Shown here: piece after piece, positions 1 to 9,743 of the stretch | Layout of the letters: each line of letters begins with the position of its first letter | Position numbering within the stretch: the first letter of the stretch is position 1 | Origin: an uncultured Actinomycetes bacterium | Lineage (GTDB): Bacteria > Actinomycetota > Acidimicrobiia > Acidimicrobiales > RAAP-2 | Assembly (NCBI GenBank): GCA_903825765.1 | Contig: CAIKBU010000078.1 | Location: 1 to 35,150, forward strand | Length of the DNA: 35,150 nt | Direction: 5' to 3' | Made by a program: the position numbers and the translations under genes | Notes under the pieces: model-generated | The model's input: the letters and a program-made list of their open reading frames with translations, nothing else | What the model was told of the DNA's origin: nothing | The model's database searches: none

Positions 1-96
1 AACTTCTACAACCACCAACGACGCTGCCAGAAGGCCGGCGGCGTCAGTCCCATTCGTTACGAGTTATCGTTGGCTCGTCTCAACCAAGCTGCATAA
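1..96 (+). CDS. IS3-family transposase, C-terminal end (partial)
   Basis: An open frame enters at base 1 and stops at TAA 94-96, giving 31 residues. They contain FYNHQRR followed by GGVSPIRYE, which matches the tail of the DDE integrase core of IS3-family OrfB transposases (family pattern: WYN.RR...LGG.SP..YE). The start, the DDE residues and the rest of the gene lie outside the window, so intactness cannot be judged. The frame ends about 30 bases before a sequence resembling an IS right end. Confidence 0.75.
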   Translation, partial: NFYNHQRRCQKAGGVSPIRYELSLARLNQAA

Positions 97-125
97 ACCG
101 TGTCCACTATTTCTGGGGAACCTCA
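1..125 (+). mobile_element. Right end of an IS3-family insertion sequence
   Basis: The transposase tail is followed at 101-125 by TGTCCACTATTTCTGGGG and then AACCTCA. This has the form of IS3-family terminal inverted repeats (TGTCC...GGGG, outer end ...TCA). The element therefore probably ends at about base 125, some 15 bases before the terminator hairpin of the leftward XRE-cupin gene. The left end and any target duplication are not visible. Confidence 0.6.
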
Positions 126-197: not shown

Positions 198-923
198 TTA
201 GAGATTGACTTCGAGGTTGAACCAAATGGCTTCAACGACATCGTCGCCGATATTCGCCAACCGGTGCGGGCGAGATGAGTCGAACGAGAGCGAATCGCCA
301 GCGTGGAGCACGTGGGTATCGAAGCCAATGGTGATTTCGAGCGTTCCCTGCAGGACATAGCCGTACTCCGTACCTTCGTGTCGCACTAGGCGCTCGTGGG
401 AGGTGGACGAACCGCCAACTTCGTAGCGCACGAACATGAACTCGGTTTTTCCGCCCCGCGTGGGCGCCAGTGACTCCCACGTCACCCCCGAATCCAAGTG
501 GATCACTTTACGTTCGTGGGGGTGGAGCGGACTCGATGGTGCATTACCGGGGATCGCGCGAAAGATTGACGTTGGACCAGGGGCGGTGACCGGAGCGAGG
601 GCGTCGCTGGACGGCTCACTTGGAAGTGAGAGGCGAGTGGTGGGATCGCCGTCAAACAAATCGTTTGGCACAATGTCCAACGCGGCACAAATGGCAAAAA
701 GCGTGCGTACCGATGGCCGGACTTTTCCCGTTTCGAGTTGGGAAATAAATGAAGCTGAGACGTCAATATCGCGAGCAAGCTGGCGCAATGACATACCGCG
801 GGACAGCCGTCGCTGGCGAATGCGGGGTCCGACGTGACTCGAAGAGGAATCGCTACCGCGGACCGCCACAGGCACTAACCCACTTTCGGACACTGCTACT
901 GAAAGTGGGGATACATTGACCAT
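198..923 (-). CDS. XRE-family transcriptional regulator with C-terminal cupin domain
   Basis: This 241-residue protein has an N-terminal helix-turn-helix of the Xre/Cro type at about residues 34-89 (RIRQRRLSRGMSLRQLA, then SASFISQLETGKVRPS) and a cupin_2 barrel at about 161-236 (HEGTEYGYVLQGTLEI and later SRPHRL). HTH-cupin proteins are usually local regulators that sense a small ligand in the cupin pocket and control adjacent catabolic or transport genes. The ATG at 923 is preferred to an upstream in-frame TTG at 950; a weak GAGAAA precedes it. It is the last gene of a leftward set SDR - bicupin - regulator, with short gaps. The proposed operator is the word shared by the SDR and importer promoters (2623-2633 and 4386-4396). 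The ligand is unknown. Confidence 0.9.
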   Translation of the reverse strand: MVNVSPLSVAVSESGLVPVAVRGSDSSSSHVGPRIRQRRLSRGMSLRQLARDIDVSASFISQLETGKVRPSVRTLFAICAALDIVPNDLFDGDPTTRLSLPSEPSSDALAPVTAPGPTSIFRAIPGNAPSSPLHPHERKVIHLDSGVTWESLAPTRGGKTEFMFVRYEVGGSSTSHERLVRHEGTEYGYVLQGTLEITIGFDTHVLHAGDSLSFDSSRPHRLANIGDDVVEAIWFNLEVNL

Positions 924-974
924 GGATAAAGCTTTCTCGCTACGAATCAACAGAGCTAGCGGACTCGCTCCAGT

Positions 975-1874
975 TTACCTACCCAGCTTGTGTGCCAGGT
1001 GTTCCCATTCGCGACTGAACCGGTAGGAGTGACGTGCCGGTGGCTGTGGAGCCTGGACCTCAATCCAACGAACTCGCCCGGTGCTGCGGTTTTCGAATCC
1101 GTGGTCTGCCCCGGTGCCGGCCCAGAGGACATCCCCGGGATGAAACACCATAAGTTCACCGTCAACCAGCGCGTGCACCTCGCCCTCGACGAAGACGTAG
1201 GCCTCTTCAAAGGGGTGGTCGTGCGGGTGGGCAATCGCGGTGGGCTGGTAGTCAACGATGAACATCGTATGCAACTGGGCGCCGACCTGGTTGTCGACCA
1301 ACATCTTTACCCCAATGCCGCTGTAGGCGAGGAGCGCAGTCGCCATGCTGGGCGAGACGGTCGGGGCATTGACCGGCGAGCCCCCAGCCAATTTGGCGAG
1401 GTTCATCGAGTCGGAGTCAAAACGTGCCGTGTTCTGTCGACGGGGGTCGCGCATATCGGGGATGACGGGGGTTGTTTCGACCAGTGTTTCACCAGTGAAG
1501 AAAGTGTCTTGGCGACGACCGTCATTCAACTCAGCTGACGAGGCCATATTAAGCCACTTCACCGGCCCATCCAACGCTCGCAAGGTATAGGGCGTGCCGA
1601 TAGGGATACAGATGACGTGATCGGGACCTAGCTGGTTGGTCTGTCCTTGGGTGGTGACCAACAGCGTCCCCGAAAAGACGTACATGCTGACTTCAAATGA
1701 GTGCAGCACGGTGTCGACGGAACCACCTTCGGCAAGGTGACCCACGCCCAGGGTCATATGTGGCGAGCCATGTTCGCGTGAGACCAATACCTGTCGAGTG
1801 AAGCCGCGACTGTGGCCTTGGTACGCCGGTACCTCGATAGCGCGATCATCGGCAATGCGGGTGACGAGATTCAT
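975..1874 (-). CDS. Two-domain cupin (bicupin) protein
   Basis: The protein has 299 residues with two consecutive cupin folds. The C-terminal cupin has complete metal-binding motifs: HPHDHPFEEAYVFVEG supplies His218, His220 and Glu224, and DHGFEN supplies His258. The N-terminal cupin (HSFEVSMYVFSG, about residues 58-69) lacks most ligands and is probably structural. One active and one degenerate cupin is the layout of (S)-ureidoglycine aminohydrolase and of several dioxygenases and isomerases, but I cannot assign a specific reaction. TTGGAGA just upstream of the ATG is a good ribosome site. The gene sits 21 bases after the SDR gene and 51 before the regulator, so the three are probably co-transcribed. 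A catabolic enzyme acting on a product of the neighbouring amidohydrolase is an inference. Confidence 0.8.
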   Translation of the reverse strand: MNLVTRIADDRAIEVPAYQGHSRGFTRQVLVSREHGSPHMTLGVGHLAEGGSVDTVLHSFEVSMYVFSGTLLVTTQGQTNQLGPDHVICIPIGTPYTLRALDGPVKWLNMASSAELNDGRRQDTFFTGETLVETTPVIPDMRDPRRQNTARFDSDSMNLAKLAGGSPVNAPTVSPSMATALLAYSGIGVKMLVDNQVGAQLHTMFIVDYQPTAIAHPHDHPFEEAYVFVEGEVHALVDGELMVFHPGDVLWAGTGADHGFENRSTGRVRWIEVQAPQPPARHSYRFSREWEHLAHKLGR

Positions 1875-1895
1875 TTCAGTTCTCCAATTCGACGT

Positions 1896-2609
1896 TTACT
1901 TAACGAGCCATCCGCCGTCCATGGCGAGATTCACGGCGTTTACGCCACCGTTCGTCAGCATGAACTCAACGGCACCAACAACCTCGCCCATGGTCACGAG
2001 TCGACCAAGGGGTGTCCGCGCGATGATGTGACCGTTGTCCTTGTCTTCCCAGTAGGGGCTGTCACCAATAATGCCCGGGTGAATGGCGTTAATGCGAACC
2101 GGCGCGAGCTCGGTGGCGAGCGAATTCACCATGCCCACGACGCCGCCATTCACCGTCGACACCGTGGTTGAACCGGGGTAGGGGCGCTGCATGGCGAGGC
2201 CACCGAAGAGAACAACGGACGCTTGTGGGGTGAAGCGATCACGGAGAACGTGAATGGCTTCGGTGTAGCCCACAAGCTTCAGGGTCACGAGGCGAATGGC
2301 GCCGGCGATGTCGTAGTCCCCAATGGTGTTCGAGTCACGTTCGATGGCACAAATAACGAGGCCATCGACGGGCCCCACACCGGCGAGGGCGTCGCGGATA
2401 GTGGTTGGTTCGCTGAGGTCAACAGCCAGAGGGCGCGTTCCAAGACCAATCTCGTCGACGGCCTTTTGGGCCGACGCCATCGTTCGACCCGACAGGTAGA
2501 CGGTCGTCCCTTGAGCGGCCAGATGGGCCACGAGTTCACGGCCAATGCCTTGTGTTCCGCCGAGCACCACAATGGTGCGGTTGGACCCCGTAGCTGAATT
2601 CCCCGACAT
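1896..2609 (-). CDS. SDR-fold protein lacking the canonical Tyr-x-x-x-Lys
   Basis: This 237-residue Rossmann protein of the short-chain dehydrogenase/reductase superfamily has a nucleotide-binding loop GGTQGIGRELV at about residues 17-27, SGR after the second strand, and the usual late segment RINAIHPGIIGDSPYW. Where classical SDRs have YxxxK, this one reads TVSTVNGGVVGM, with no Tyr or Lys in register, and the strand before it ends LFGGLAMQ without the catalytic Ser. The protein may bind NAD(P) yet not use the standard mechanism, or may be non-catalytic. Similar atypical SDRs are known. The start is supported by AAGGGG upstream of the ATG. It is the first gene of the leftward operon, about 26 bases from a predicted transcription start. 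Confidence 0.85.
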   Translation of the reverse strand: MSGNSATGSNRTIVVLGGTQGIGRELVAHLAAQGTTVYLSGRTMASAQKAVDEIGLGTRPLAVDLSEPTTIRDALAGVGPVDGLVICAIERDSNTIGDYDIAGAIRLVTLKLVGYTEAIHVLRDRFTPQASVVLFGGLAMQRPYPGSTTVSTVNGGVVGMVNSLATELAPVRINAIHPGIIGDSPYWEDKDNGHIIARTPLGRLVTMGEVVGAVEFMLTNGGVNAVNLAMDGGWLVK

Positions 2610-2622
2610 GAGTTCCCCTTAG

Positions 2623-2633
2623 TGTTCAGTGAA
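2623..2633. promoter_or_regulatory. Candidate operator TGTTCAGTGAA (copy 1)
   Basis: The 11-base word TGTTCAGTGAA lies between the predicted -10 box and the start codon of the SDR gene, a position where a bound repressor would block initiation. The identical word recurs between the -35 and -10 boxes of the importer promoter at 4386-4396. It is built around the inverted pair TTCA/TGAA with one central base. The presumed binder is the XRE-cupin regulator encoded in the same operon (inference). Confidence 0.5.
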
Positions 2634-2642
2634 GATAAACAC

Positions 2643-2670
2643 ACTCTACGAGATTGTCCCGCGCCGTCAA
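2643..2670 (-). promoter_or_regulatory. Predicted promoter of the SDR-bicupin-regulator operon
   Basis: On the minus strand, TTGACG (2665-2670) is separated by 16 bases from TAGAGT (2643-2648). They match the -35 and -10 consensus at 5 and 4 of 6 positions. Transcription would start near 2636, about 26 bases before the ATG at 2609. The word TGTTCAGTGAA lies directly on the predicted early transcript. Confidence 0.5.
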
Positions 2671-2689
2671 GTTCTCCATTGAAAAATAT

Positions 2690-2717
2690 CGGCGACATGG
2701 CGCGGTGATTGTCGCCG
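2690..2717. repeat. Inverted repeat in the divergent intergenic region
   Basis: CGGCGACA (2690-2697) and TGTCGCCG (2710-2717) form perfect 8-base arms separated by 12 bases. The site lies within the 267-base gap between the leftward SDR gene and the rightward amidohydrolase gene and could be a second protein-binding site. I could not define a convincing promoter for the amidohydrolase in the rest of the gap, which otherwise holds a strong ribosome site (AAAGGGGGG) before 2877. Confidence 0.35.
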
Positions 2718-2876
2718 TGAGGGTCTTGAGACACGGGGCTGTGGGGCTTCTCATCGATTAGTCCCACGGCTTAAAAAATTCTCTTCGTTAATGAGATGTG
2801 AAGCAACTCTGTACAAATCGTTCATGGGTGCTATCGTTCGGAAGAATTTCCAACTTTCATTCCTTAAAGGGGGGAC

Positions 2877-4316
2877 ATGAATAAGCCAGTTAGTTCAACC
2901 GGAGCTTCACTCGAGCACGGCCGTTCCATTGTGTTTCGCAATGCCACGGTTATGACGATGAATGATGCACATCAGCTACTGAAGGGACACGACGTCTTGA
3001 TTGTGGGCGGCGTGATCACGGCCATTGGGGTGAATCTCGAGGCACCAGCGGACGCACTGGAAATCGACGCTCACGGTGGCATCTTGATGCCCGGCATGAT
3101 TGACACGCACCGCCACATGTGGCAGACCGCGATGCGGGCCTACGGTGCGGACTGGACGTTGTCGCAGTACTTCGTCTGGTTTTACCTCCAGCACGGTCGT
3201 ACCTTCCGTCCACAAGACGTGTACGCCGGCAACTTGTTGTCAGCAGTGGAAGCCATCGACGCCGGTGTTACAACGTCCGTCGACTGGTCCCACGGCCTCC
3301 AGACCATCGAGCACGCCGAAGCGGCCGTTGACGCCCTCGAGGAAGTACCAGCTCGCTTCACCCTGGCGTACGGAAACATTCAGGCCGCACCATGGGAGTG
3401 GTCGACCACGCCAGAATTTAAATCGTTCGTGGCTCGTCGATTCACGGGTAAGGGCGACATGCTGAAGTTCCAGATGGCCTTTGACGTCGTGGCTGGTGAG
3501 GCCTTCCCCGAGCGTGCCGCCTTTGAGGTTGCCCGTGAGCTTGGTGTGCCCGTCAACACCCACGCCGGAGTGCTCGGAGCGAACGGTGACCTCAGTATCC
3601 AACTGATGCACGACAACGGCTACATGACACCGGACACGATTCTGGTGCACTGCTCGACGCTGTCGGATGACTCCTACCAGCGCATCGCCGCTGGCGGTAG
3701 CTCGGTGTCGGTGTCGACGGAAAGTGAACAGAGCGCTGGTCAGGGATATCCATCCTCGTTCAAGCTTCGCGAGTTCAACATCCCGATGTCGCTGTCGAAC
3801 GACACGTCCGTGTGGTGGAGCGCCGACATTTTCTCGGCCATGCGCACAACGTTGGGTGCCGACCGTTCGCGCCAGCACCTGGAAGCGCACGCGAAGGGCG
3901 AGAACGTCATGCAGATCGACCTTCGCTGTGAGGAAGTCGTGGAATGGGCGACGCGCGGTGGATCGAAGGCCTTGGGCATGGACAGCACGATTGGCAGCAT
4001 CGAAGTGGGTAAGCGGGCCGACGTTGTGCTGCTGCACAACGAGAACTCGCCGGTCATGTTCCCCATCATCAATCCCTACGGACACGTCACTCTGCAGGCG
4101 CAGCGCGGCGACGTTCATACGGTGGTTATCGATGGCAACATCGTCAAGCACGAGCACAAGTTGATTGGTATCGACTTGGCTCACGTGCGCGCCACGGTCG
4201 ACGAGACGGTCAGCTACCTCGAGTCATCGTTGGGATCTGAGGCCTGGGAATCTGGCATGCACCCAGACTTGCCGCCAAAGAAGAACATCGCCAACCCGTA
4301 CAAGTACATCGCGTAA
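2877..4316 (+). CDS. Amidohydrolase-superfamily deaminase/chlorohydrolase-like enzyme
   Basis: The 479-residue protein belongs to the cytosolic, metal-dependent amidohydrolases of the guanine deaminase / SsnA / TrzN-AtzB type. The metal ligands are present: the first pair in MIDTHRHMW (His78, His80), His229 in VNTHAG, His258 in LVHCST and Asp309 in SNDTS. The C-terminus has the usual closing strand (IEVGKRADVVLL). The family deaminates or dechlorinates N-heterocycles such as guanine, 8-oxoguanine, cytosine and s-triazines, and sequence alone does not separate these. The ATG is preceded by AAAGGGGGG. The gene heads a rightward set with an ABC importer and an M24 hydrolase, so it probably acts on the imported compound or its product. 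A strong terminator follows, and the importer has its own promoter. Confidence 0.85.
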   Translation: MNKPVSSTGASLEHGRSIVFRNATVMTMNDAHQLLKGHDVLIVGGVITAIGVNLEAPADALEIDAHGGILMPGMIDTHRHMWQTAMRAYGADWTLSQYFVWFYLQHGRTFRPQDVYAGNLLSAVEAIDAGVTTSVDWSHGLQTIEHAEAAVDALEEVPARFTLAYGNIQAAPWEWSTTPEFKSFVARRFTGKGDMLKFQMAFDVVAGEAFPERAAFEVARELGVPVNTHAGVLGANGDLSIQLMHDNGYMTPDTILVHCSTLSDDSYQRIAAGGSSVSVSTESEQSAGQGYPSSFKLREFNIPMSLSNDTSVWWSADIFSAMRTTLGADRSRQHLEAHAKGENVMQIDLRCEEVVEWATRGGSKALGMDSTIGSIEVGKRADVVLLHNENSPVMFPIINPYGHVTLQAQRGDVHTVVIDGNIVKHEHKLIGIDLAHVRATVDETVSYLESSLGSEAWESGMHPDLPPKKNIANPYKYIA

Positions 4317-4331
4317 CGAACGTCGTGCAGT

Positions 4332-4371
4332 AATCAATGCGGGGTCCGAAAGGGCCCCGCATTGATTGTTT
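4332..4371 (+). terminator. Terminator after the amidohydrolase gene
   Basis: A 16-bp stem with a single G-T pair (4332-4347 with 4352-4367, tetraloop GAAA) is followed by GTTT. It lies 15 bases after the amidohydrolase stop and just before the importer promoter, so it separates two transcription units. Confidence 0.85.
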
Positions 4372-4379
4372 AGTATGAC

Positions 4380-4408
4380 TTGACTTGTTCAGTGAACGTG
4401 GTTACATT
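4380..4408 (+). promoter_or_regulatory. Importer promoter with embedded operator (copy 2)
   Basis: TTGACT (4380-4385), a 17-base spacer and TACATT (4403-4408) make a good sigma-70-type promoter. The spacer contains TGTTCAGTGAA (4386-4396), identical to the word at 2623-2633; here it extends to the perfect palindrome GTTCAGTGAAC (4387-4397). GTGAACGT at 4392-4399 is repeated at 4416-4423. Binding between -35 and -10 would repress the importer. The transcript leader is about 85 bases and also holds a small inverted repeat, TGCAC/GTGCA, at 4461-4474. Confidence 0.6.
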
Positions 4409-4499
4409 GTCGATTGTGAACGTTTGATGGACTCGTCGAGTCCGGCGTCTACGACGAGGCTGCACGAACGTGCAGTCTTAGATTTGGGGGGAATACGAA

Positions 4500-5522
4500 G
4501 TGAAAACATCTATTGGAAAGTTGTCACTTGGACTGATGGGTGCAGCATTGCTGTCAACCTCACTCGTCTCAGTGGCGAGCGCAAAGACCGTTGTCAAGCC
4601 GTCGTTCAAGGTCGCATACTTGTCCTACGCAATTGCCAACACCTACGACGCACCAATGCTGGCTGCCGCACAGGCTGCAGCAACCAGCGTCGCCAATGCA
4701 AACGTCAGCGTGACGGTGTTTGACGCTGCGAACAGCTACACGCAGCAGATCTCACAGATCGAGGACGTGACGTCATCGGGTCAGTACAAGGGGATCATCC
4801 TTCAGCCCATCTACGGTCCGGCCGAAATCAGTGCCGTTCAGGCAGCTATGGCTGCCGGAATCAAGGTCGTCAACATTGACCAGATCTTGGGCGGCGACTG
4901 GACGACCACCGCAATTCAGGTTCCTGGTCTCTCGGGCAACGTGGTGTTCTTCCCATCTCTGATTGGTACCCAGCTCGGCACTCAGGCACTCGCCGCTTGT
5001 GGCAAGGTCACTGCATGCAGCGTTGGTCTGATCCACAACTACGACGGCTACGAGCCAGACGCGCAGATCACGGCCTCGATCACGGCCAAGCTTGCTGCGT
5101 CGAAGAAGCCGAAGGTGACGCTGACCAGCCTTGGTGACGGCCTCTACCAGAGTGGCGTCGCCCAGACGGTTGCCGCCGGTGCCATCATTGCGCACCCTGG
5201 TCTGAACGTGATTGTTGGATCCGACCAGGACTGCGTTGGTGCCCAAGCTGCTCTCAACGCTGCCAATAACACCACCACGAAGTTGGTCTGCTACGGCGGT
5301 TCCACTGAGGCGAAGACACAGGTTGCGGCTGGCAAGTGGTTCGCTGACGTTGTGCAGGCTCCTGCCACCGAAGGCACCGTCGGTATGAACCTCTTGGTCA
5401 CCGCCATGCTCGGTAAGGGCAAGGTTGGCGGCACAGTGGCTAACCCAGTTGGTGGTCTGCCAAACGGTGGCATCATGCTGCCAAGCAACATCGACCGATT
5501 CACGGGTCAGTGGACTGCCTAA
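4500..5522 (+). CDS. ABC importer substrate-binding protein, RbsB type
   Basis: This 340-residue secreted binding protein has a Sec signal peptide (charged MKTSIGK, hydrophobic core, predicted cleavage after VASA at about residue 28). It is followed by the periplasmic-binding-protein type 1 fold (FKVAYLSYAIANTYDA, SSGQYKGIILQPIYG, then IVGSDQDCVGAQAAL). No lipobox cysteine is present at the cleavage site, so its anchoring in a monoderm is unclear. The GTG start at 4500 is supported by GGGGGGA upstream. It is the first gene of an importer set with an RbsA-like ATPase and an RbsC-like permease. The family binds pentoses, autoinducer-2, nucleosides or polyols. The gene context (amidohydrolase, bicupin) argues against a plain sugar, but this is inference. 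Confidence 0.9.
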   Translation: MKTSIGKLSLGLMGAALLSTSLVSVASAKTVVKPSFKVAYLSYAIANTYDAPMLAAAQAAATSVANANVSVTVFDAANSYTQQISQIEDVTSSGQYKGIILQPIYGPAEISAVQAAMAAGIKVVNIDQILGGDWTTTAIQVPGLSGNVVFFPSLIGTQLGTQALAACGKVTACSVGLIHNYDGYEPDAQITASITAKLAASKKPKVTLTSLGDGLYQSGVAQTVAAGAIIAHPGLNVIVGSDQDCVGAQAALNAANNTTTKLVCYGGSTEAKTQVAAGKWFADVVQAPATEGTVGMNLLVTAMLGKGKVGGTVANPVGGLPNGGIMLPSNIDRFTGQWTA

Positions 5523-5572
5523 TTAGGTAGTTCCTCGTACCATGCATCACCGCTAGACGTGATTGTCACATT

Positions 5573-7096
5573 ATGAACATTGATGCTCACGTGGGCACCG
5601 CCGGTGGCGACTTTATCGCCACCGGCGTGTCCAAGCACTACGGTGGCGTTCCGGCGCTCACCAATGTTTCGATTCGCCTTGAGCCAGGAAAAGTCCACGC
5701 TCTCATTGGAGAAAATGGGGCTGGAAAATCCACGCTCGGCAAAATTATTGCGGGAGTTATTGCTCCTGATTCTGGAATACTGACCTTTCGCGGTGAACTG
5801 CTCGTCCTTCGTACGCCTCGAGATGCCATCGCCGCTGGCATTGTCACGATTGCGCAAGAACTTACCGTTGTACCAAGCCTGACGGTCGCCGAAAATATCT
5901 TCTTGGGCTCCGAAACCGCGACGGCATCGGTGGTGCATCGCGCCGCCATGCGTCAGCGCTACGACGAGCTCGCGGCGTTGGCGGGATTTGACTTGCACCC
6001 CGACACGGTGGTCGGAGCGCTCTCGACTGCTGAAAAACAGAAAGTTGAGGTGATGCGGGCGCTCTCTCGCAAAGCTTCGATCATCATTATGGATGAACCT
6101 TCGGCCTCGTTATCAACGAGTGAAGTGGGTGTCCTGCACAGCATTATTCGCCACTTGGCCGCAAGTGGTGTGGCCATTGTTCTCATTTCGCACTTCCTCA
6201 ACGAAGTCCTCGATCTCGCCGACACGGTTACGACGTTGCGTGACGGCAGTCTTATTGCAACGGCCCCCGCGCAGGAATGCACCGAGCGAGGTCTCATTGA
6301 AGGAATGTTGGGCCGCTCCCACACGGCGGCGTACCCCGAGAAGGTTTTGGCACCGACCGATGCGCCAGTGGTGCTCGACGTACAGCATCTCAGCGCTCCA
6401 GGAGTGCAGGATTGCTCGCTGCAAGTGCGCGCGGGAGAAATTGTCGGTATCGCCGGCCTGGTGGGTTCGGGTCGCTCTGAATTCGTTCGTGCCATCTTCC
6501 GCGACGCCCCACTCAGCGCCGGGCGCGTCGTGCTCGACGGTACGGAGTTAAAGAAGCGGAGTCCAAGTGTGTCGATTCGTGAAGGCGTTGCCTTCATCCC
6601 CGAGTCCCGCAAGGAAATGGGACTGCTCATGGGGCGTTCGATTCGTGAAAACACCGCCTTGTCGCGGTTGCCGTGGTTGAGTCGGTGGTCGTGGATTTCG
6701 CGCAAGCGTGAATTGGCTGCCGTTACCGAGCAGGTTGCCAAAGTCGGCGTCAAAGCGGCGTCGCTGACCCAATCGGCACGGATGTTGTCGGGTGGCAATC
6801 AACAGAAGATCCTCTTCGCCCGCACGTTGATGTGCACTCCGAAGGTGTTGATTTGTGACGAACCTACGCGAGGCGTCGATGTGGGCTCTAAGCGAGCCAT
6901 TTATGACCTGCTCGTTGCGAAAGCTCAGGAAGGCATGGGCATCGTTGTCGTTTCTTCCGAGCTGGAAGAAATCTTGGGTCTGGCCCACCGCGTGGTGGTG
7001 ATGCGCCACGGACAGATAACGGCATCGCTCGACGGTGACAACGTCAATGAACAAGCAATCCTGGTGGCGGCATTTGCTGACGCCCCCTCAGCATAA
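5573..7096 (+). CDS. ABC importer ATPase with two nucleotide-binding domains, RbsA/MglA type
   Basis: The protein has 507 residues and tandem ATPase domains. Domain 1 has Walker A GENGAGKST (46-54), a diverged signature LSTAEKQKVE (about 150-159) and Walker B IIMDEP. Domain 2 has the degenerate Walker A GLVGSGRSE typical of this family, a canonical signature LSGGNQQK (405-412) and Walker B LICDEP. This asymmetry is standard for RbsA, MglA and XylG, where one site hydrolyses ATP. The gap from the binding-protein gene is 50 bases and the permease begins 8 bases after the stop, so all three are likely co-transcribed. No strong ribosome site precedes the ATG. Confidence 0.95.
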   Translation: MNIDAHVGTAGGDFIATGVSKHYGGVPALTNVSIRLEPGKVHALIGENGAGKSTLGKIIAGVIAPDSGILTFRGELLVLRTPRDAIAAGIVTIAQELTVVPSLTVAENIFLGSETATASVVHRAAMRQRYDELAALAGFDLHPDTVVGALSTAEKQKVEVMRALSRKASIIIMDEPSASLSTSEVGVLHSIIRHLAASGVAIVLISHFLNEVLDLADTVTTLRDGSLIATAPAQECTERGLIEGMLGRSHTAAYPEKVLAPTDAPVVLDVQHLSAPGVQDCSLQVRAGEIVGIAGLVGSGRSEFVRAIFRDAPLSAGRVVLDGTELKKRSPSVSIREGVAFIPESRKEMGLLMGRSIRENTALSRLPWLSRWSWISRKRELAAVTEQVAKVGVKAASLTQSARMLSGGNQQKILFARTLMCTPKVLICDEPTRGVDVGSKRAIYDLLVAKAQEGMGIVVVSSELEEILGLAHRVVVMRHGQITASLDGDNVNEQAILVAAFADAPSA

Positions 7097-7104
7097 GGAA
7101 GAAC

Positions 7105-8106
7105 ATGACTAACACTGCAACGAATGATCTAGCACCCGTTCGCGAGGCGCGACTTGGCATCCGTTTGCCGGCTTTCCTTCGCTCGTGGCGCACGACGGGG
7201 ATTCTGATTCCCTTCCTGGCTCTCTTTGTCGCGCTGTGTTTGAAGAGTGCGCCGTTTCACTCAACGAACAACCTGATCAATATTTTGGGGCAGCAGTCAT
7301 CAACCCTCTGCATTGCTGCCGCCTTCACCCTCGTGCTGGTTGCGGGGGGTATTGACCTCTCCGTTGGTGCGACCTACGGTTTGGCGTCCGTCGTTGGTGG
7401 GGAAGTGGCCATGCACCACTCCGCCGGTCTCGCCATCGTTGCCGCAATGGTGGCGGCCATCGTCGTAGGACTCCTGAACGGACTCATTATTACGGTGGTA
7501 AAGATCAGTCCCCTGATCACGACCCTCGCTATGTCCTTCGTAGTCAGCGGTATTGCGCTGCGTTGCACGCAGGGGAACCTCATTGCACTGCCCTCAAAGG
7601 GAGCGTTCTACCTTCTCTCCAATTTGCACTTCTTGCGTCTGCCGAGTTGCGTCTGGATTACCTTGGCATTTGTGGTCGTGCTGGCGCTGCTCTTGAATCG
7701 CACGACCATTGGTCGCTACATGGTTGCCGCGGGCGGAAACATGGAAGCAGCTCGACTCGCGGGTGTACGCGTCAATGCCATCAAGCTCTCGACCTATGTG
7801 CTCAGTGGCGCAGCCGCAGGCCTCGGCGGTTGCTTGGACCTCTCACGCTTGTTGAGCGCGCAGGCGTCGAGCGGCGGCAATGCATTGACTTTCACGGTGC
7901 TGGCGGCCGTGGTCGTGGGCGGCACATCGATTGCCGGCGGCGAAGGATCCGTCTGGCGATCGATGATCGGCGTGCTCTTCATTGCTCTCATCGGTAATGG
8001 ATTTATTCTCTTGGGTATCAACACTCTCTACCAGCAGATTGTGTTGGGTGTGATTTTGCTACTCGCGGTCGGTTTGGACTCCTGGTTCCGCTACCGCCAG
8101 AACTAA
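7105..8106 (+). CDS. ABC importer permease, RbsC type
   Basis: A 333-residue polytopic membrane protein with about ten hydrophobic segments, of the BPD_transp_2 family (RbsC/XylH). Typical features are GGIDLSVGATYGL near residue 85, which is conserved in this family, and EAARLAGVRVNAIKLSTYVLSG, which contacts the ATPase. There is one permease gene, so it would work as a homodimer with the RbsA-like protein. AAGGAAG lies upstream of the ATG. The M24 hydrolase gene follows after 37 bases, apparently in the same unit. Confidence 0.93.
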   Translation: MTNTATNDLAPVREARLGIRLPAFLRSWRTTGILIPFLALFVALCLKSAPFHSTNNLINILGQQSSTLCIAAAFTLVLVAGGIDLSVGATYGLASVVGGEVAMHHSAGLAIVAAMVAAIVVGLLNGLIITVVKISPLITTLAMSFVVSGIALRCTQGNLIALPSKGAFYLLSNLHFLRLPSCVWITLAFVVVLALLLNRTTIGRYMVAAGGNMEAARLAGVRVNAIKLSTYVLSGAAAGLGGCLDLSRLLSAQASSGGNALTFTVLAAVVVGGTSIAGGEGSVWRSMIGVLFIALIGNGFILLGINTLYQQIVLGVILLLAVGLDSWFRYRQN

Positions 8107-8143
8107 CGAAGTAACGACGTAACCTACGAAGAATGGAGTGCGC

Positions 8144-9490
8144 ATGACGGTGAAGACCTTTGGGCTGAATGGTGTTGACTGGGAGGAGCGCGTCGATTTT
8201 GACCGATTGCGCGAGGCCCGCCTCGGCCGGTTGAACCAGAAGCTGAACGAAAGCCACCTCGGTTCGTTGCTGACCTTTGACTTCAACAACATTCGCTACA
8301 TGACGTCCACGCATATCGGTACGTGGGCTATCGACAAGTTGATTCGCTTCGCCCTCTTGCCCCGTGGTGGCATGCCCGTCGTTTGGGACTTTGGTTCCGC
8401 CGCAAAGCACCACGTATTGCAAAACTCTTGGCTAGACCATGGATCGGGAGCCCGTGAGGGTGTCGAGCCCGAACACGGTTCACGTCCCGGTATTTCGACG
8501 CTTCGCGGTGCCTTCAATCCGGACGCCGGCATCGCCGAAGGTGTCGCCAAGGCTATTAAGCGCGAACTGCAGAAATATGGCCTCGAGCACGAGCCACTGG
8601 GCATCGACGTGGTCGAGATGCCGATTCTGACCGCGTTGCGCAACGAGGGAATTGACGTCGTTGATGGGCAACAATTGTTTCTCGAAGCTCGTCGTATAAA
8701 GACGGTTGACGAAATCACGCTCCTGACGACGGCGGCATCAATGGTCGACGCGGCCTATGACGAACTGTACGCCTTCTTGCGACCCGGTGTTCGCGAAAAC
8801 GAGTGTGTGGGTCTGGTCAATAAGGTCCTGTACGACTTGGGGAGTGAGCACGTTGAAGGGGTGAACGCGATTTCGGGCGAGCGTTGCTCGCCGCACCCGC
8901 ACGTCTTCACTGACCGACTACTGCGCCCCGGTGACCCCGCATTCTTCGACATTCTGCACTCCTTCAACGGCTACCGCACGTGCTACTACCGCACGTTTGC
9001 GGTTGGTAGTGCCAGCGTCGCCCAACGCGACGCGTACACCAAGTGTCGAGAGTTGATGGATAACGCCATCGATCAGGTCAAGCCTGGCGCCACCACGGCC
9101 GACGTCGTTTCGGTGTGGCCGAAGGCGCAAGAGTTCGGTTTCCCAGACGAGATGGCGGCCTTCGCACTGCAGTATGGCCACGGTATTGGCCTGTCCATCT
9201 GGGAAAAGCCTATTTTCTCGCGCCTAGTCTCGCTCGATCACCCAGAGGTACTCGAGGAAGGTATGTTCTTCGCCCTGGAGACCTACTGGCCATCGAAAGA
9301 TGGTTGGGGCGCCGCCCGTATTGAAGAAGAGATGGTGGTCACCGCTACCGGCTGTGAAGTTGTCACCAAATTCCCAGCGGAAGAGCTGTTAGTTGCGGGT
9401 CAGCGCTATTGGACGGTGGACGGGACGCTAAACCGGACTCGTGACGTGCAGTCGCACCTCAACACTCGCTCCGCACGAGGGCTGAACTAG
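8144..9490 (+). CDS. M24-fold (pita-bread) hydrolase with an altered metal site
   Basis: The 448-residue protein has the creatinase/aminopeptidase P layout: an N-terminal domain (LLTFDFNNIRYMTS) and a C-terminal pita-bread domain. Typical M24 metal ligands are Asp, Asp, His, Glu, Glu. Here Asp269 (FFDIL), His346 (GHGIGL), Glu379 (FALETYW) and Glu394 (ARIEEEM) are present, but the second Asp is Cys280 (GYRTCYYRTF instead of GY.SD..RTF). The N-terminal pattern recalls the DMSP lyase DddP, yet the DddP metal and catalytic aspartates are not conserved. A C-N or related bond-cleaving enzyme for the imported substrate is a reasonable guess. The ATG at 8144, with GGAG five bases before it, is preferred to the GTG at 8138. 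Confidence 0.8.
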   Translation: MTVKTFGLNGVDWEERVDFDRLREARLGRLNQKLNESHLGSLLTFDFNNIRYMTSTHIGTWAIDKLIRFALLPRGGMPVVWDFGSAAKHHVLQNSWLDHGSGAREGVEPEHGSRPGISTLRGAFNPDAGIAEGVAKAIKRELQKYGLEHEPLGIDVVEMPILTALRNEGIDVVDGQQLFLEARRIKTVDEITLLTTAASMVDAAYDELYAFLRPGVRENECVGLVNKVLYDLGSEHVEGVNAISGERCSPHPHVFTDRLLRPGDPAFFDILHSFNGYRTCYYRTFAVGSASVAQRDAYTKCRELMDNAIDQVKPGATTADVVSVWPKAQEFGFPDEMAAFALQYGHGIGLSIWEKPIFSRLVSLDHPEVLEEGMFFALETYWPSKDGWGAARIEEEMVVTATGCEVVTKFPAEELLVAGQRYWTVDGTLNRTRDVQSHLNTRSARGLN

Positions 9491-9639: not shown

Positions 9640-9702
9640 GTCACCGCTGGACTGGCCGATGATGCGTGAGTGCTAGAACGAACTCTTGATGGTCAGAACA
9701 AA

Positions 9703-9743
9703 AGCACCCCCGCTCGCGCTTTCCAAGCGCAAGCGGGGGTGCT
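9703..9743 (-). terminator. katG terminator, near-copy of the hairpin at 140-174
   Basis: A perfect 12-bp stem (AGCACCCCCGCT 9703-9714 with AGCGGGGGTGCT 9732-9743) encloses an inner stem (GCGCTT 9716-9721 with AAGCGC 9725-9730). Read leftward it ends in TTTTG just after the katG stop. Both the outer and the inner stem match the structure at 140-174 closely in sequence and orientation. Confidence 0.8.

Follow-up and report, generated by a model that had tools for sequence, protein, structure and literature searches.

A conserved, probably catabolic gene block around an M24-fold protein with a metal-site cysteine in an uncultured acidimicrobial bacterium

Gene content of the locus

Here, we describe a conserved gene block in a 35,150-nucleotide stretch of DNA from an uncultured actinomycete of the order Acidimicrobiales. 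The whole stretch, referred to as the window, is contig C78 (CAIKBU010000078.1) of a 1.75-Mb metagenome-assembled genome (MAG) in 129 contigs. Eight intact genes, whose Pfam families all matched above curated cut-offs, lie at positions 198-9490. The minus strand carries an XRE-cupin transcriptional regulator (198-950), presumed to regulate the cassette, a bicupin with one complete metal site in its C-terminal domain (975-1874), and a protein of the short-chain dehydrogenase/reductase (SDR) fold without the YxxxK motif (1896-2609). On the plus strand are an amidohydrolase with an intact metal site and no HxxE Glu (2877-4316), an RbsB-like substrate-binding protein (4500-5522), an RbsA-like ABC ATPase (5573-7096), an RbsC-like permease (7105-8106), and a protein of the M24 (creatinase/prolidase) fold (8138-9490). 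This last protein, in which Cys282 stands in place of a metal-ligand Asp, is the hub of the cassette, and we call it and its close relatives M24-Cys. The assignments were made with Pfam for the regulator, with Pfam and NCBIfam for the importer genes, with alignment in addition for the SDR and the amidohydrolase, with Pfam, alignment and a structure model for the bicupin, and with all four for M24-Cys. The RbsB-like protein scores 27.3 bits against the NCBIfam model of the ribose-binding protein RbsB (NF007936), below the cut-off of 337.

An earlier reading of the same letters (the sequence-only reading) had reported these families as packed together in a divergent catabolic locus of no described pathway. 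Coordinates and Pfam bear out the packing, and the locus is divergent and probably catabolic; no description of this gene set was found in the literature available as open full text, preprints and most subscription papers lying outside that scope. The genes in its list are real, but the list omits an E1 alpha/beta pair encoded elsewhere in the MAG and a transposon-like left border (see below).

The altered M24 protein and its partners

The window M24 protein matches PF00557 with 129.4 bits. The metal ligands of M24 metallopeptidases, which we take to be D, D, H, E, and E, are kept at four of the five positions, the second Asp being Cys (D271/C282/H348/E381/E397 in 90/90 rows), as the sequence-only reading had it when it spoke of an altered metal site. 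C250, H253, and H255 are likewise fixed in all 90 rows. Two sequences were left out of that count: a haloarchaeal (Halorussus) relative of ~35% identity, in which residue 282 is Cys but residues 250 and 255 are different, and an M24 paralogue (29% identical) with Gln at position 282. In a sample of 396 genomes drawn evenly from the phylum (M24-Cys threshold E 1e-100 or better), Cys282 is present in 30/30 other genomes, and D271, H348, E381, and E397 in 31/31 readable rows.

The M24-Cys model has a weak mean pLDDT of 64.9, so nothing is drawn from it on pocket shape. Its fold matches are a prolidase (4r60, Z 25.6, rmsd 4.6, 345 aligned), the ectoine hydrolase DoeA (6twj, Z 23.6, rmsd 4.2, 340 aligned), a creatinase (7yto, Z 23.0, rmsd 4.6, 343 aligned), and the dimethylsulfoniopropionate (DMSP) lyase DddP (4s00, Z 22.5, rmsd 4.8, 363 aligned). 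DddP and DoeA are catabolic enzymes, not peptidases. They share the M24 fold with M24-Cys over nearly the full length, but identity in the fold alignments is ~20%, and M24-Cys differs in having Cys282 and other gene partners. The best NCBIfam model is that of DddP (NF043017), which M24-Cys matches with 99.4 bits, below the cut-off of 600; read by eye, the alignment column of Cys282 holds Asp in DddP (4s00_A).

The SDR, as reported earlier, is without its Tyr and Lys: V150 and N154 stand at the YxxxK positions in 51/51 rows, so that the classical SDR catalytic pair is missing. The Rossmann Gly motif is kept (G17, G18, G21, and G23 in all 51 rows), and R91, D92, N94, K111, Y115, Y144, H177, D183, and K190 are also each fixed in 51/51. 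With a hub lacking a canonical metal ligand and an SDR lacking its catalytic pair in every copy examined, the chemistry is likely to be unusual.

That the bicupin has one metal site also stands, with the C-terminal ligands H218/H220/E224/H258 in 47/47 rows; by eye, the N-terminal cupin of the window protein lacks two His present in several type-B relatives (defined below). (S)-ureidoglycine aminohydrolase, which we take to be a bicupin with its metal in the C-terminal cupin, has a fold and C-terminal ligand pattern that the window protein and its predicted metal site fit, a likeness shared with other bicupins and therefore unspecific, and the score against the NCBIfam model of that enzyme (TIGR03214) is 26.6 bits, below the cut-off of 200. 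The bicupin model (mean pLDDT 83.1) lies near quercetinase, salicylate/gentisate dioxygenase, oxalate decarboxylase, and ureidoglycine aminohydrolase (best-chain Z 24.3-22.1), with matches to 1y3t (Z 24.3, rmsd 3.1, 255 aligned), 2phd (Z 23.6, rmsd 3.7, 272 aligned), and 4e2q (Z 22.1, rmsd 3.0, 217 aligned). Identity to (S)-ureidoglycine aminohydrolase, quercetinase, and the salicylate/gentisate dioxygenases is only 10-15% in these alignments, and the modelled fold does not separate a dioxygenase from a hydrolase.

The amidohydrolase matches PF01979 (90.5 bits) and scores 372 bits as a PRK08204-like protein, just below the cut-off of 391. The metal ligands of its superfamily, presumably HxH, H, H, and D, are invariant where readable (H78 and H80 in 51/51 rows; H229, H258, and D309 in 53/53 each). 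It had been called guanine-deaminase-type: the metal ligands are kept, but the Glu of HxxE, which we take to be the mark of such enzymes, is missing (53/53 rows have V, M, or D at position 232), and the score against guanine deaminase (TIGR02967) is 79.5 bits, below the cut-off of 375.4.

Close relatives of the amidohydrolase (E 1e-120 or better) are present in 10/396 phylum genomes, the window's own included. Eleven relative loci (L049, L050, L223, and L232-L239) were compared: eight came from the phylum search, two from a class search (one of which, G014, the phylum search also gave), and the remaining one from a record in a plasmid collection. They form a cluster of ring-cleavage type, in which the amidohydrolase is 59-68% identical to the window's and is accompanied by a CaiB-type CoA-transferase and a citryl-CoA-lyase-like protein (11/11 each), a PcaR/PcaU-type IclR regulator (10/11), LigB (9/11), and a LigA-like protein (9/11). 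The one IclR protein scanned scores 244 bits for the PcaR/PcaU type, below the cut-off of 285, and the LigA-like label was given by reading, the scanned frame being without a Pfam or NCBIfam match. M24-Cys, the bicupin, and the Tyr/Lys-less SDR occur in none of the eleven loci. In the window's own MAG, a single LigB query gave no match, which does not establish absence. A 39-row amidohydrolase tree rooted on type-B sequences places the window clade among the ring-cleavage-type rows with modest support (SH-aLRT 81 at the relevant node, with a long-branch warning). The amidohydrolase of the block may thus have been recruited from such a ring-cleavage-type cluster, and this kinship shifts the likely substrate class from purines to aromatic or other cyclic, enol-type compounds.

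Distribution of the block

Within the genus, the amidohydrolase (>=77% identity) was found in 3/13 other genomes sampled: G250 has the whole block, the 20 kb read of G130 contain the block but no XRE-cupin gene, and in G126 the contig ends after RbsB. A scan of named genomes gave at least 579 M24-Cys relatives, and the loci of the best 80 of these 579, a set rich in Streptomyces, show three architectures. Type A, that of the window (bicupin, SDR, amidohydrolase, RbsBAC, and M24-Cys), is seen in nine named loci (L085, L087, L102, L117, which is G130's contig, L122, L132, L143, L146, and L159), eight of them with the XRE-cupin gene. All nine are MAGs, filed as five Acidimicrobiaceae, two Actinomycetes, one uncultured actinobacterium, and one Acidobacteria. 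Type B, in Streptomyces, Micromonospora, Nocardioides, and others, combines an XRE-cupin gene with the order M24-Cys, E1 alpha, E1 beta, amidohydrolase, bicupin, SDR. In type C, mostly from Microbacteriaceae, M24-Cys is accompanied by zinc dehydrogenases in varying sets, a different importer of the Rbs type, VOC proteins, a fused E1, and E2, and some loci also have bicupin, SDR, and amidohydrolase. Within the best 80 of 579, 55 loci span at least 18 kb; 49 of these carry XRE-cupin, 44 the amidohydrolase, 44 the SDR, and 40 the bicupin; an absent neighbour may reflect a contig end, as in L083.

Across the phylum sample, 31/396 genomes have M24-Cys, the window's own included. The neighbourhoods of all 30 others were fetched and genes counted within 9 kb at set identity thresholds, the counts being lower bounds because of contig ends. 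The E1 component of a 2-oxo-acid/acetoin dehydrogenase (pyruvate dehydrogenase type) leads, with an alpha or fused form in 21/30 and a beta or fused form in 21/30, followed by a 6PGDH-like protein (17/30), XRE-cupin (11/30), bicupin (10/30), SDR (10/30), aldehyde dehydrogenase (9/30), amidohydrolase (8/30), and RidA (1/30); VOC proteins were found in none of the 30. The bicupin is present in 16/396 genomes, again with the window's own, and the 15 others gave 14 regions, the match in G638 being a fragment at a contig end. M24-Cys (>=50% identity) is in 13 of these 14 regions, as is the SDR. Thus, bicupin and SDR accompany M24-Cys, M24-Cys often occurs without them, and E1 is its commonest partner.

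Bicupin and SDR also vary together on a FastTree phylogeny of 122 M24-Cys rows, 119 with states. State means presence in the stretch read (entered by hand for the window, L017, L163, L166, L167, L171, L172, and L174), and contig ends add noise. The bicupin changes state 14 times, and the SDR changes in the same direction in ~10.8 of 11 independent pairs and in the opposite direction in none (sign test ~0.001).

Outside this sample, four Roseobacter plasmid loci carry the order SDR, M24-Cys, E1 alpha, E1 beta, lipoyl protein, aldehyde dehydrogenase, E2, with Rbs-type ABC genes adjoining in three; aldehyde dehydrogenases are found at five plasmid loci in all. Haloarchaeal relatives of M24-Cys are 34-35% identical, and in the one haloarchaeal stretch read, neither an E1 nor a bicupin nor an importer of the Rbs type is annotated. 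The M24-Cys loci read in Paenarthrobacter carry RidA. On a plasmid of Paenarthrobacter sp. R1 (L166:15196-20228), a run of RidA, M24-Cys, 6PGDH, and SDR lies beside sulfonamide-degradation genes. A link of M24-Cys to sulfonamides was considered and set aside, the neighbourhood being treated as accidental; in the parts of PMC10873849 and PMC6868719 available to us, M24-Cys is not mentioned. Degradation of a pyrazine-type compound was another lead considered and set aside.

Within the same MAG, an operon on contig C32 (L017:4873-9870) encodes E1 alpha and beta together with a second M24-Cys, 58% identical to that of the window. It also contains an HbpS-like gene and another M24 protein in which most of the metal ligands are lost, and a Liv-type ABC importer lies upstream. 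In this MAG, E1, the commonest partner of M24-Cys, lies outside the window. Type-B E1 alpha scores 330.9 bits against a pyruvate dehydrogenase cut-off of 393.85, and type-B E1 beta exceeds the cut-off of the PRK09212 subfamily (336.3 against 321 bits).

The block of the window is repeated, with its gene order unchanged, on contig C20 (L008) of the MAG. Identity between the two copies is 78% for the bicupin, 75% for the SDR, 85% for the amidohydrolase, and 87% for a truncated M24, against 53% for RbsB, 62% for RbsA, and 62% for RbsC, so that the enzymes are more conserved than the importer. Contig C19 (L009) ends in an XRE-cupin gene and overlaps C20 by 141 bases. The C20 block may be a true second locus or a co-binned relative. 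The flanks of C20/C19 differ from those of the window, with an amino-acid-permease-type gene and, by eye, a prenyltransferase-like gene.

Regulation and borders

The divergent promoter of the window contains the palindrome GTGTTC-N9-AAACAC (2622-2642), found by motif scan and shuffles, which we propose as a candidate operator of the XRE-cupin regulator. Type-A loci share the common form ATGTTC-N9-GAACAT upstream of the SDR start. At this conserved place, 8/11 type-A loci have it with at most three mismatches, C20 and L047 have it with four, and L046 is without a site; anywhere in the region, 9/11 have it, the C20 match lying elsewhere (shuffles: mean 0.92, max 5/11). This count excludes L085, which has no intergenic read, and L117, which is L047's contig, and it is partly circular, the motif having been read from the same sequences. 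A 9-base spacer is the best between 4 and 15 (best-mismatch sum 23, against 43-50). Types B and C were not used to derive the motif, and in the interval from 300 bases upstream to 30 bases inside the M24-Cys gene a site is found near the start in 6/21 chosen loci and in none of the other 15 (shuffles: mean 0.89, max 3, 0/300 runs reaching 6). In the window's own genome, matches with zero mismatches lie at two places, the window site and C22:17695. As a marker of a genome-wide regulon the palindrome was rejected for lack of discrimination: with one mismatch allowed, the forward motif has 60 matches and the reversed control 41.

At its left border, the window begins with a probable insertion-element end (1-125, plus strand; IS3-type, putative), in which bases 1-96, the last 31 transposase codons and the stop, are followed by a terminal stretch. 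The end of a second element copy on contig C116 (L010:107-141) shares bases 91-125 exactly (35 bases), and the product of that copy matches the integrase domain PF13333 (rve_2) with E 2e-7; the window's own 31 transposase residues gave no Pfam match when scanned alone. G+C is 58% in the first 9.5 kb and 62% in the remaining window. Taken together, the transposase-like left end, the C116 copy, and the difference in G+C suggest from sequence that the cassette may be mobile in origin, its left border resembling a transposon end. G+C-rich hairpins flank the block, one at 133-176, a probable terminator 3' of the XRE-cupin gene, and a similar one at 9699-9741 (~60-base folds of -30.0 and -36.6 kcal/mol). 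To the right of the block are a KatG-like peroxidase gene and a Fur-type gene.

Discussion

Here, we propose that the block is a catabolic cassette, probably mobile and presumably under the control of the XRE-cupin regulator, for one small polar and probably cyclic compound, a reading to which we give roughly even odds (about 0.5). The block itself is real, conserved, uncharacterised, and probably catabolic: the RbsABC importer, bicupin, amidohydrolase, Tyr/Lys-less SDR, and M24-Cys form a conserved set, and E1 lies beside M24-Cys in most sampled genomes. In the scheme that we envisage, the RbsABC-type importer would bring the compound in. It would be opened by the bicupin, through hydrolysis or oxidative cleavage, and by the amidohydrolase, through hydrolysis or hydration. 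The SDR step may use the nucleotide site with non-classical residues, and M24-Cys would cut a C-C or C-N bond at its Cys-modified metal centre to give a 2-oxo acid or acyloin. E1, encoded in trans on C32 beside the second M24-Cys, could then convert this product to an acyl-CoA, and aldehyde products would go to the neighbouring aldehyde dehydrogenases.

Several observations weigh against this proposal. No E1 was recognised in the window, E1 does not track the bicupin on the M24-Cys tree (median p 1), and E2 lies within 9 kb of M24-Cys in 1/30 sampled genomes. In the 16 kb of C32 read, there is no palindrome with fewer than three mismatches, so joint control of the window and C32 is not apparent. 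Types A and B fill the amidohydrolase slot with members of clearly distinct subfamilies, so that its role may differ. The SDR of the Roseobacter loci is of another type and not Tyr/Lys-less. The importer, which the sequence-only reading counted as a member of the set, is of this type only in the lineage of the window and a small number of others; an Rbs-type binding protein is within 9 kb of M24-Cys in 1/30 sampled genomes.

What else might such a block do? One option, which we consider unlikely though the best of the alternatives, is a polyol or cyclitol route, in which a sugar-like compound is imported and oxidised by dehydrogenases to a diketone that M24-Cys cleaves as a C-C hydrolase ahead of E1. 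Several type-C loci, mostly of Microbacteriaceae, would suit this: M24-Cys is found there with an SDR, three zinc alcohol dehydrogenases, and a second importer of the Rbs type. Among the best NCBIfam models of those dehydrogenases are, below cut-off, scyllo-inosose 3-dehydrogenase and L-threonine dehydrogenase, and Rbs-type importers occur in type A and three Roseobacter loci. The window block, however, has no alcohol dehydrogenases of this kind; neighbours such as amidohydrolase, RidA, and amidase would be odd for a pure polyol; and the kin of the amidohydrolase reside in a cluster of ring-cleavage type.

The sequence-only reading itself favoured a purine- or hydantoin-like substrate, and a nitrogen compound of this or an amide-like kind could be handled by ring opening at the amidohydrolase, creatinase-like C-N hydrolysis by M24-Cys, and an aminohydrolase bicupin. 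DoeA and creatinase among the folds near M24-Cys, ureidoglycine aminohydrolase among those near the bicupin, and RidA at some M24-Cys loci point this way, but the TIGR03214 and TIGR02967 cut-offs are missed by far, the HxxE Glu is absent, and the amidohydrolase has its relatives next to LigB-type genes. With these failed membership tests and the ring-cleavage-type home of the amidohydrolase, the purine or hydantoin assignment is not supported, and we hold it to be improbable.

A slightly poorer prospect is that M24-Cys is a beta-eliminating lyase like DddP. DddP provides its best NCBIfam model and is among its fold matches; against this, the 600-bit cut-off is missed, DddP has Asp where M24-Cys has Cys282, and most of the nearest named carriers (in the best 80 of 579) are recorded as actinobacteria, for example Streptomyces and Microbacterium. 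Actinobacteria of this kind are not known as typical users of DMSP. Finally, a chance neighbourhood of unrelated genes would fit the varying composition between lineages, but gene order conserved in independent genera, the neighbour counts, and the co-variation of bicupin and SDR make it wildly improbable; the block genes recur together in many genomes, rather than never co-occurring, which was an outcome that the sequence-only reading had named as fatal to its own grouping.

Returning to the proposed catabolic cassette, a bolder form of it may be put forward tentatively, at less than even odds. M24-Cys may found a new class of prolidase-fold metalloenzyme, marked by a conserved Cys in the metal site, whose new C-C or C-N cleavage feeds a dedicated E1. 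It would then be the core of a catabolic system not yet described and shared by Acidimicrobiia, Streptomyces, Microbacteriaceae, and Roseobacters, and the bicupin and the Tyr/Lys-less SDR would make up a new pair of enzymes that is inseparable in actinobacteria.

The public records examined label parts of this gene set 'Xaa-Pro peptidase', 'cupin', and 'SDR', and these parts are probably one catabolic system. The set is found in many actinobacteria, and its core also occurs on Roseobacter plasmids. Once identified, the substrate would correct the misleading 'peptidase' labels and would name a compound used by these bacteria.

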